64,000 nt of DNA, taken from the NCBI RefSeq assembly GCF_900129295.1, contig NZ_FQUU01000004.1, positions 248,001-312,000 of the forward strand, in the 5' to 3' direction. The notes below the pieces were generated by a model. That model was not told the DNA's origin and did not search any database. It was given only the letters and a program-made list of their open reading frames with translations. The position numbers and the translations under genes were made by a program. Shown in pieces: positions 15,451-21,580 of the stretch (the first letter of the stretch is position 1; every line of letters starts with the position of its first letter). Source of the stretch: Flavisolibacter ginsengisoli DSM 18119. GTDB lineage: Bacteria > Bacteroidota > Bacteroidia > Chitinophagales > Chitinophagaceae.

Positions 15451-16047
15451 ATTGTTTACTTTATTTTAGGAAACCAATCAGTTGCAAATATATGCGCAAC
15501 TTTTCGGTTTCCTATTATTTATTCAACTTTTTTTTAAAAAAAATTAAATAACAGGAAAACTATTATCATTTCCACCTCTATACTGTAATACTTAAATGAG
15601 TGTGATGAATCCGCACTACTTATTATTTCATACCAGGCTTTTCCGAACCCTTTACAACCATAACCTTTCAGCCTTACGGAATTAGAATAGGTAATCCTTA
15701 CTGCAAATCATTTCTTTATCCCGCAGCTATAATGGAAAAATATATTGGTCCAGTTTTATTCTCCAGGCGTACAAGCAGGTTCATATAAAAGGCTTAATTT
15801 TTATAAGCATCCTCACACCCCTCCTTTACATAAAAATTGCTTCCTTGGTCCTTCTATTATGCAACGCCTATGTAACGGCTATGTAACGGCTCTGTGCCGC
15901 CTATGTAACGGCTCTTTAAAGAACCGTTACATACCAGTAACATACTTTTTTCATTCGGTTTTATTTTATGGATGGCCATTGTTTTTTACTAAGATTTTTA
16001 GTATTTTAGCATTGTAATTATTCTATTATCCTATAAAAACTATAACA
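15451..16047. other. Intergenic interval with 11-bp tandem repeat and palindrome
   Basis: This is 597 bases between the divergent ArsR operon and the 264-residue unknown gene. It contains the promoters of both, a poly-A/T tract near 15530-15545, the 11-bp repeat array at 15861-15915 and a 26-bp palindrome at 15905-15930. I see no credible gene. Confidence 0.65.
15861..15930. repeat. 11-bp tandem repeat array ending in a 26-bp near-palindrome
   Basis: Five 11-bp units run from 15861 to 15915: GCAACGCCTAT, GTAACGGCTAT, GTAACGGCTCT, GTGCCGCCTAT and GTAACGGCTCT. The last unit is also the left arm of an inverted repeat at 15905-15930 (arms GTAACGG and CCGTTAC; the whole 26 bases are self-complementary except one pair). 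The 11-bp period places each copy on the same DNA face, as expected for a multimer-binding site. It begins about 190 bases before the ATG of the next gene. Confidence 0.8.
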
Positions 16048-16842
16048 ATGGCCAGACTAACAGGTCCACTTGCCTTTACCGGGAAGCTGGATGGAATATC
16101 AGCCTTTAAACGCAAAGGCAGCAACCGGGTGATTCTTCGACCACGCTATGGTCCCAGCAAAAAAGATGTGGACACCAAACCTTCATACGACAATACACGA
16201 AGGGTAAATAAAGAATTTGGCGGACGCTCAACGGCCGCTAAATGGATAAGGGATGGATACCATGCCCTGAAACTTATTGCAGACAGTGATAACCTTTCAA
16301 ACCTCAATGCACTGCTGTTGCCCATACAACAACTGGACACCGAAACAGAATATGGAAAACGGTCGGTTATTCTTTCCTTAAACAGGGGGTTGTTAGAAGG
16401 CTTTAACCTAAACAAATGGCATCCTTTTGAATCTGTGATACAAAACCCTGTTGGCTGCACTGTGTTAAGGGAAGAACTAAAAGCCCTGGTTAACGTACCT
16501 GCATTAATAAAAGGAGTAAACTTCATCCCTCCCACTGTTCATCCATTTTTCAGGGTGGTGGCAGCTCTTTCCATTGTGCCAGATCTTTACTACCACCAGG
16601 TCAGGTACAGGCCCATTGGAAGTTATGAAGGTTTTCGCCCGGGAGTAGTGAAGACAGCATGGATGGCAGTTCATACACAAACTGAGGCTATAAACCTGGA
16701 GTTGACGTTGCCTGCTATACCACCGAATGATCATTTTAGCCTTGTGCTTACCATGGGCATTGAAATGGGAACTGCCAAAAGCCTTTCGCTTATTGAAGGG
16801 ATAAAATATGCAGGCTGTGGGAAAATAATGGCGGTAAGGTAA
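16048..16842 (+). CDS. Uncharacterised 264-residue protein
   Basis: I do not recognise a named domain. The protein starts MARLTGPLAFTGKLDGISAF and continues with a basic stretch (KRKGSNRVILRPRYGPSKK), then TRRVNKEFGGRSTAAKWI. My recollection is that Chitinophagaceae genomes often encode proteins with this opening and that they are uncharacterised. There is no signal peptide or membrane segment. The middle is mixed alpha/beta, and the C-terminal half has several hydrophobic strands. It is monocistronic, preceded by an unusual 11-bp repeat array and palindrome that could be its own regulatory site. Phage-structural, nucleic-acid-binding and self-association roles are all open. Confidence 0.75.
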   Translation: MARLTGPLAFTGKLDGISAFKRKGSNRVILRPRYGPSKKDVDTKPSYDNTRRVNKEFGGRSTAAKWIRDGYHALKLIADSDNLSNLNALLLPIQQLDTETEYGKRSVILSLNRGLLEGFNLNKWHPFESVIQNPVGCTVLREELKALVNVPALIKGVNFIPPTVHPFFRVVAALSIVPDLYYHQVRYRPIGSYEGFRPGVVKTAWMAVHTQTEAINLELTLPAIPPNDHFSLVLTMGIEMGTAKSLSLIEGIKYAGCGKIMAVR

Positions 16843-16990
16843 TAAGCATGTTCCAGGACTATGAAATACAAAATCGCTAAATTATCTTTATGCCTGGCAG
16901 AACAAAAAGGAAACACTTGGTTTGGAAATTCCAGTTTTCTTAAATGTTTTCTGTTATAAACCGTTCCCACCAAAACATAACTTCTATAAA

Positions 16991-17533
16991 ATGGACCAGA
17001 AGAACAAAGTCAGATCAGGACTAATTTTCGGAATTGTAACATCCCTATTTTTCATTCTCCAAAATTTGCTCACCCGTGATGATCTTTCCACTCAAAATCT
17101 TATTATAATAATTGCCTCGTCATTGTTTGGAGGAGCTCTTGCGGGGTTCCTATTTGGATGGCTGATTGGATTATTTGCTAATTCCAAATTTTTAAAGAAC
17201 GGTACAAATATTGACACTGCTAGCAATGAAACCATTGTATTTAGTACAGGTGCCAATCATTTCCAGGGAGTTGAAGGTGTAGGTGGTAAATTATACCTCA
17301 CCAATAAGAGATTGATATTTAAGTCCCACAACTTTAATATCCAGAATCATGAATTCTCGATTAATTTATCAGACGTTGACGAGGTGCATAGGTATAGCAC
17401 CTATGGCATCATCAATAACGGGCTATCAGTTACAACCTCTGGCAATGTCATTGAAAAGTTTGCTGTCCAGGAACCAGAAGAATGGATGTTTCAATTAAAA
17501 GAAAAGAATAGCTTACAATCCGTAGAACAATAA
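16991..17533 (+). CDS. Membrane protein with GRAM/PH-like domain
   Basis: I chose the ATG at 16991 (180 residues); the longer frame from 16922 adds 23 unconvincing residues overlapping the presumed leader. Two hydrophobic segments lie at about 9-28 and 38-65 (IIIIASSLFGGALAGFLFGW). The soluble C-terminal part follows the GRAM-domain pattern: ANHFQGVEGVGGKLYLTNKR, then LIFKSHNFNIQNHEFSINLS, DVDEVHRYST and a final EEWMFQL. GRAM domains are PH-like modules that bind lipids or proteins. The gene is monocistronic and its function is unknown. Confidence 0.78.
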   Translation: MDQKNKVRSGLIFGIVTSLFFILQNLLTRDDLSTQNLIIIIASSLFGGALAGFLFGWLIGLFANSKFLKNGTNIDTASNETIVFSTGANHFQGVEGVGGKLYLTNKRLIFKSHNFNIQNHEFSINLSDVDEVHRYSTYGIINNGLSVTTSGNVIEKFAVQEPEEWMFQLKEKNSLQSVEQ

Positions 17534-21468: not shown

Positions 21469-21580
21469 AGGAGAACCCGGATTAATAGAATTTTATTGGA
21501 TTGTTAAGGAGAAGAGAACCAGGATTACTATTATTATATTGGATTGTTGAGGAGAAAGGAAACCCAGAATAAGTATAGTC
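21469..21580 (+). repeat. Imperfect ~40-bp tandem repeat
   Basis: Three successive units begin with AGGAGAA at 21469, 21508 and 21550. The first two contain CCCGGATTAATAGAATTTTA or ACCAGGATTACTATTATTAT and then share ATTGGATTGTT; the third is truncated (AAACCCAGAATAAGTATAGT). The units vary in length by a few bases. It lies directly after the VOC stop codon. Confidence 0.65.

Follow-up and report, generated by a model that had tools for sequence, protein, structure and literature searches.

An array of 11-bp units and the uncharacterised gene beside it: a candidate gene-and-repeat pair in Bacteroidota

Does a short array of 11-bp repeats upstream of an uncharacterised gene belong with that gene, and is it then a control site, a dispersed repeat, or both? 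The question is raised by one locus in a 64,000-nucleotide stretch of the Flavisolibacter ginsengisoli DSM 18119 genome (the window), which lies in contig C35 of a 4.68-Mb genome. The reading that we prefer, with a probability of roughly 45%, is a two-part Bacteroidota system comprising an undescribed gene family and a cognate element, in which the protein would recognise the array and arrays would have spread as non-autonomous repeats. In this element, five units of 11 bp, each spanning one helical turn, would lead into a palindromic AT-rich centre followed by inverted units; the protein, most likely acting as an oligomer along a single face of the helix, would recognise the phased units. The array beside the gene would serve as its own control site, and further copies, of a distinct type for every paralogue type, would have spread to other positions between genes. 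The features of the locus are as follows.

15847-15857, forward strand: weakly conserved leader before unit 1 (information content, 27 copies aligned out of 30)
15858-15912, forward strand: five direct 11-bp units (sequence; Tandem Repeats Finder; 0 of 200 shuffles; gap-free alignment of 18 copies)
15858-15868: unit 1, TATGCAACGCC, read off the sequence
15869-15879: unit 2, TATGTAACGGC, read off the sequence
15880-15890: unit 3, TATGTAACGGC, read off the sequence
15891-15901: unit 4, TCTGTGCCGCC, read off the sequence
15902-15912: unit 5, TATGTAACGGC, read off the sequence
15902-15933, no strand: 32-bp palindrome formed by unit 5, the centre, and the first inverted unit, with one mismatched pair
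15913-15922, no strand: AT-rich palindromic centre, TCTTTAAAGA, identical in 24 of 27 aligned type-1 copies (the 27 were chosen by the centre pattern, which 3 of 30 copies did not fit)
15923-15944, reverse strand: tail of two inverted 11-bp units (sequence)
15923-15933: inverted copy 1, ACCGTTACATA, read off the sequence
15934-15944: inverted copy 2, CCAGTAACATA, read off the sequence
16048-16842, forward strand: uncharacterised gene of 264 amino acids (open ORF), of what we call the MAR family after its usual first residues
16851-16867, forward strand: shared 3' end of the block, TTCCnGrACnATGAAAT (by eye; one base shorter in two paralogues)

The whole window array thus occupies 15858-15944, starts 190 bp upstream of the gene start (142 to 410 bp for other elements), and ends 103 bp before the gene. 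The five units that a sequence-only reading had noticed here are present: Tandem Repeats Finder at its default score returned three rows for the 64-kb window, two of them the window array (period 11, 4.8 copies, score 64; period 22, score 75), and the period-11 score of 27/33 in the 400 bp upstream of the gene was reached by 0 of 200 dinucleotide shuffles. The same reading had described a 26-bp palindrome, which is indeed there and extends to 32 bp. On the 388,517-bp contig that holds the window, four places reach 24/33 or more at period 11, all of them belonging to the array types described here, and Rfam gave no match at gathering score within the window. A 43-bp sequence in two copies with 86% matches was reported by Tandem Repeats Finder at 21471-21556 of the window.

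The adjacent gene had been described as uncharacterised with a highly basic N-terminal region, and both points held. The protein has no Pfam match at an E value of ≤0.1 (the best, at 0.18, falls below the cut-off) and belongs to no NCBIfam or PHROG family; no DNA-binding or catalytic domain was recognised by Pfam, and the translation reads as rich in lysine and arginine in its N-terminal part. No solved structure was found by profile search. The predicted model of the window protein is poor (mean pLDDT, 64.3), and Foldseek returned nothing for it at an E value of ≤0.001. A relative from what we call the typical subfamily gave a better model (mean pLDDT, 81.8), with a hairpin and helices predicted towards the N terminus and a beta-sandwich towards the C terminus; it drew one structure match at an E value of ≤0.001 (TM, 0.21) and VIA-align Z scores of up to 5.7 over residues 127-251, a common beta-sandwich arrangement. 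No transposase appeared in the fold-search lists, which covered mainly the C-terminal half (the sandwich) and barely the N-terminal part, so that absence among these predicted matches is no proof of absence. An origin as a phage gene was considered and set aside: only 1 of 127 pattern matches in viral contigs encodes a relative (L185), and with relative L105 as query there were 0 matches in 50,697 phage records and 1 in 72,556 plasmid records.

The window array is one of many. A model built from 18 copies found at least 32 places of the window's array type (type 1) in the genome at an E value of ≤1e-10, and this is a lower bound because the best 150 of 1,074 candidates were scored (65 rows in all, the rest being alternative readings of the same places, except one at E 0.24). 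Thirty of the 32 places are without the gene. The copies that we read follow the same plan, namely a short leader, five direct units, the centre, and inverted units. Among the 27 of 30 type-1 copies aligned, the information content of the leader exceeds background from about position -61 relative to the GGC before the centre, and conservation fades gradually at both ends. Type 1 was absent among the candidates scored in 17 other genomes of the genus (the best 150 of 484 to 1,922 per genome).

Four close members of the gene family (the window's included) and one distant member are present in the genome. The C18 paralogue, 66% identical to the window protein, is preceded at a similar distance by a type-1 array that has diverged. 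Upstream of the C34:5635 and C35:161326 paralogues, 73% identical to each other, the arrays keep this plan but use different units, around ATGTCCCATAG and GATATCCCGAA, respectively. Counting the gene-linked arrays, the C34:5635 type occurs in 3 places and the C35:161326 type in 22 (23 strong rows, one reassigned to the C34:5635 type as a better fit); the type-2 alignment used 15 of 22 places. Array similarity tracks protein similarity: the 66% and 73% pairs have related arrays, and pairs at 43 to 46% identity, which join one pair to the other, do not. An impression that the paralogues lacked arrays came from a motif count that used the window array's motifs alone, and it was reversed for the four closer members by model search and reading; the fifth, distant member (L005) has a 10-bp repeat in place of the 11-bp array. 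Judged by these comparisons, each branch of the family has a dispersed array type of its own. Recurrence of the array independently of the gene had been named as evidence against a pairing, and the array does recur in about 30 places without the gene, yet each paralogue type has its own dispersed type.

Array and gene also form one discrete block of about 1 kb. Similarity between the window and C18 spans 15862 to 16835, approximately from array start to gene end, with none outside in the stretches compared, and C34:5635 and C35:161326 share 75.6% identity along 996 bp that run from the array to a point 23 bp past the stop codon, where similarity ends abruptly. A second block identity among the paralogues of this genome is 70% over 979 bp. 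The 3' end of the block recurs at C35:161326 and C34:5635, after which similarity stops, and is not clear at C18. The window and C35:161326 also share neighbour genes of AHSA1 and ArsR kinds (67% over 755 bp), which may reflect an older joint duplication. The next gene downstream in the window (16922-17533) encodes a GRAM-domain protein (PF02893) and is absent after the three other close paralogues.

To assess linkage beyond this genome, we searched 294 genomes of the taxonomic family, of which 31 (its own included) have a homologue at an E value of ≤1e-15. The 30 other genomes hold 52 homologues, 48 of which were testable (28 genomes), four being dropped at contig ends. An 11-bp period lies within 500 bp upstream of 42 of the 48 (22 genomes; P ≤ 0.01 against shuffles) and of 42 of the 43 homologues at an E value of ≤1e-23, compared with 0 of 48 control stretches from the same loci. 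The top upstream period is 11 or 22 in 39 of 48; a score of 24/33 is reached at period 11 in 29 of 48, at period 22 in 19, and at periods 6, 7, 8, 14, and 16 in one each. The six that fail are five distant homologues (E values of 1e-16 to 1e-19) and L282 (P = 0.105), in which units are nonetheless visible by eye. The proposed pairing of array and protein is strongly supported for the closer homologues, 42 of 48 of which carry the array, and by the single block that array and gene form in the window's own genome. It does not extend throughout: 6 of 48 in this closer set lack the array by this test and 79 of 80 typical-subfamily genes fall below the threshold. Homologues without an array, and arrays without the gene, are thus each seen in part; they leave the pairing intact, since every paralogue type is matched by a dispersed array type of its own.

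Anatomy recurs as well as period. For this comparison and for the consensus, a set of 48 gene-linked arrays was used that leaves out the five distant homologues and adds this genome's own four and L055 (G015). Five direct units are present in 34 of the 48, four in 10, six in 3, and seven in 1, as counted by a method that starts from a four-unit seed. An inverted unit (≥9/11 matches) follows 30 of the 48 and precedes 2; the window array's own tail scores only 7/11 in this test. In a few genes we noticed a palindrome on the promoter side by eye, but a strict pattern recovered it in just 1 of 48, so it is no general feature. The earlier expectation that GTAACGG arrays would recur upstream of homologues failed, as units differ between genomes, and type 1 was not found in the 17 genomes of the genus scored. 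Instead, the features that recur in the sequences compared are the 11-bp phase, usually five units, the inverted tail, and a loose circular consensus of units across genomes, TAGATATCCCG. For the 42 of 48 arrays with a score of 22 or more, this consensus carries 11.41 bits, compared with 4.72 (standard deviation, 0.17; maximum, 5.13) in 60 shuffles, and part of the agreement is shared descent. Unit and protein distances correlate (n = 42; Mantel r = 0.42, reached in 0 of 2,000 permutations), a correlation in which shared descent is not separated. Helical-turn spacing, a consensus for each unit, and co-divergence with the protein are together most simply read as binding by the encoded protein. 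The sequences themselves show the partnership of gene and array and the spread of arrays; recognition by the protein, self-control, and a role in multiplication are inferred from them.

Dispersal is likewise found elsewhere. Gene-linked arrays included, the type beside the homologue occupies 9 places in G015 (E ≤ 3e-4) and 3 in G019 (E ≤ 9e-6), and the type beside a typical-subfamily gene occupies 40 in G005 (E ≤ 1.2e-5), some of them partial and with 40 of 79 candidates scored. In 400 kb of G034, a single gene-free control genome in which no homologue was found, there are no period-11 arrays at 24/33; 400 kb of G124, a genome that does have a homologue, holds five period-11 arrays with differing units, and no homologue was found within those 400 kb. 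The match to the closest homologue in G015 (C1:1477736-1478523) is split into two pieces that overlap (query residues 1-49 and 43-263), as would be expected of a broken frame.

A profile scan from the typical subfamily found at least 585 relatives, of which 80 were kept, all from Bacteroidota by record title. Only 1 of these 80 upstream regions reaches 24/33, no better than control stretches (1 of 155), and in many of these genes a degenerate 11-bp pattern like CATACTTTATC CATGCCTTTGG TATGGCTTTGC can be seen by eye near -270. In a first sample of 29 homologues, this genome's own included, 11 pass the period-11 test (29 of 31 rows were tested, one of the others being a second piece of a counted gene and one having no locus). 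Because the typical-subfamily pattern is weak, we limit the strong claim to the window's subfamily and part of the typical one.

The alternative that survives best, although we consider it unlikely, is that the gene encodes a transcription regulator for which the arrays serve as operators, with solo arrays controlling their neighbours and having arisen by selection rather than copying. A recurrent unit count and a shared consensus would fit such a regulon, and so would location. None of the 30 type-1 loci inspected, the window's among them, overlaps an ORF of ≥100 amino acids, and the same holds for 15 of 16 solo loci of other types, the sole exception overlapping a 104-amino-acid ORF that is probably no gene; the overall figure is 45 of 46 loci (30 of the 32 type-1 places and 16 of the 23 solo places of other types), and only 12.2% of the contig lies outside such ORFs. 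Furthermore, of the 23 type-1 arrays for which both flanking genes were called, none sits between convergent genes, although such positions make up 23.5% of the available intergenic bases of one contig. Types 2 and 3, on the other hand, lie between convergent genes in 4 of 14 cases, and the genes that flank solo arrays look unrelated when their translations are read. Copies conserve the leader and tail outside the units, as copying predicts, and type 1 was not found among the candidates scored in the 17 other genomes of the genus, both of which count against a regulon. Type-1 arrays between co-oriented neighbours show an orientation bias (11 versus 3) that the other types do not clearly repeat (4 versus 2).

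A second alternative, which we judge to be less probable still, sees the arrays as miniature elements that depend on an unrelated transposase for their movement, with the gene as a passenger. In their size and their location between genes, solo arrays do look like MITEs, and the gene travels as part of a discrete block. Nine of 30 type-1 arrays also have an exact IS-like end, CAACCTATTTT, no more than 60 bp away, and this end occurs just once in the 388-kb contig, beside an array. This end is missing near the other 21, two of which show near variants by eye, and it looks like a later insertion beside arrays; moreover, the array accompanies the gene in 22 other genomes with differing units, which a passenger would hardly maintain. 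The 9 of 30 suggest rather that arrays may attract insertions, and an insertion sequence that targets array edges is a likely source of these ends. The IS-like end (..CAACCTATTTTGGAACTACACA) is seen, for example, at L077, L078, L083, L084, L090, and L097, and other repeated IS-like ends are visible by eye near type-2 arrays at L222 and L233. For REPs, an insertion sequence that inserts into them, ISPpu9, is described.

We give about the same low credence to the idea that a folded form, RNA or single-stranded DNA, is what is recognised, either as a leader RNA element or through REP-like hairpin processing. Five arrays folded as RNA have z scores of -2.6 to -5.6 (the predicted single-strand fold of 15857-15946 has a z score of -3.36), but such pairing is close to inevitable for tandem plus inverted units. 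The first inverted unit agrees with a unit of its own copy slightly more than with those of other copies (25 of 5,000 permutations; 27 copies), and the second shows no such match (4,983 of 5,000 permutations reach it). RNAalifold gives nine pairs, one of them changed on both sides, and helical-turn spacing with a consensus for each unit suits double-stranded DNA. Minisatellite slippage without function is a known source of tandem repeats, and there are 7-, 9-, and 10-bp repeats upstream of some relatives (L044, L038, L005, and L057), but it is very improbable given the preference for period 11 (29 of 48, with 19 at period 22 and single cases at 6, 7, 8, 14, and 16) against 0 of 48 controls, five units in 34 of 48 gene-linked arrays, and full copies dispersed in the genome. 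The repeats at L038, L005, and L057 are 9- or 10-bp repeats of CGGCACAAA, CCGGCCAAAC, and CGTGCCCAAA types that stand in place of 11-bp arrays.

We thus return to a protein that would recognise the array beside its gene. Autoregulated repressors with phased operator arrays have helically phased repeated sites upstream of their genes, as the MAR system does. What sets the MAR system apart is the many copies that are dispersed without the gene, each with a leader and tail. In outline it resembles the REP/REPIN-RAYT systems (REPtrons), with cognate repeats beside the gene and dispersed between genes. The REP/RAYT papers describe a gene with adjacent cognate palindromic repeats, dispersed copies, and co-evolution of repeat and protein (PMC8266576, PMC8049555, and PMC3733652). 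RAYTs are HUH tyrosine transposases, whereas PF01797 (HUH/Y1 tyrosine transposase) has no match in the window protein or the scanned relatives, and the system therefore fails the defining protein test of REP/RAYT. The elements differ too: REPs are palindromes of 20 to 40 bp, tagged GTAG or CGTC at one end, and the window element is about 100 bp of 11-bp units; GTAG occurs inside the cross-genome unit consensus and not in the window's units. Unlike REP/RAYT, array and gene of the MAR system form one block of about 1 kb at several places. A RAYT acting as partner from elsewhere was also considered, but none of the five PF01797 places in the genome has a type-1 array within 1.5 kb, the nearest seen being about 8 kb away.

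Within the phylum, the nearest dispersed tandem-repeat element that we found in the accessible sources is BrickBuilt of Porphyromonas gingivalis, which with MITEPgRS is similarly built of tandem repeats and dispersed as about 10 to 20 copies of the element, BrickBuilt always being intergenic (PMC4596501). These have units of 23 or 41 bp, in a number that for BrickBuilt varies from 1 to 22.8, and terminal inverted repeats like those of IS5-family elements, and the available part of that report mentions no linked protein family (PMC4596501). A second gene family, DUF6266, may carry arrays too. A DUF6266 gene in G124 (L349:5125-5769, reverse strand; PF19781, E 9.6e-40) has a period-11 array 222 bp upstream, and 2 of 5 DUF6266-like ORFs in the loci studied reach 24/33, one of the two being this G124 gene, itself found through its array. 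No homology between DUF6266 and the MAR family was detectable by hhalign against one DUF6266 sequence (probability, 0.34%), and PF19781 had no match up to an E value of 10 in the window protein and four relatives.

A fuller version of the preferred reading is a gene-repeat system without a tyrosine transposase or a known IS, in which the protein would read a five-turn array, control itself, and multiply the array, with private types for each paralogue; we consider this more doubtful than not. The protein may move the arrays itself, or may simply use arrays that other machinery copies. We found no description of the gene family or its arrays in the open-licence PMC literature. As far as we are aware, REP/RAYT is the main case in which the origin and persistence of short dispersed repeats with a partner gene have been worked out, and an unrelated second protein family with cognate repeats would, if confirmed, provide an independent test case and a first lead to the function of a family with at least 585 relatives. 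The system would be a variant if all genes with dispersed repeats of their own are placed in a single kind, and a new kind by its parts. Its regular anatomy, five helical turns and then an inversion, offers a directly testable model of DNA recognition.

Several gene arrangements recur around relatives in the wider family. In Flavobacterium (L154:4001-5419), a DUF5675-like gene (PF18925 in L154) comes after the typical gene, together with a gene for a small protein that resembles a membrane protein. The neighbourhood at L158 and L171 also includes a second paralogue and a gene resembling a nuclease (PF00565 in L171), so that these genes form a recurring cluster. Proteins of about 200 to 240 amino acids at L188:5968-6570 and L234:492-1211 (both reverse strand) share just the N-terminal part of the family, and palindromic arrays with 11- or 22-bp steps are visible by eye upstream of them. 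Several typical members have upstream of them, near the array, a small divergent gene of about 74 amino acids, helix-turn-helix-like by reading only; it is seen at L121:3590-3814 (reverse strand) and also upstream of L043, L048, L053, and L060.
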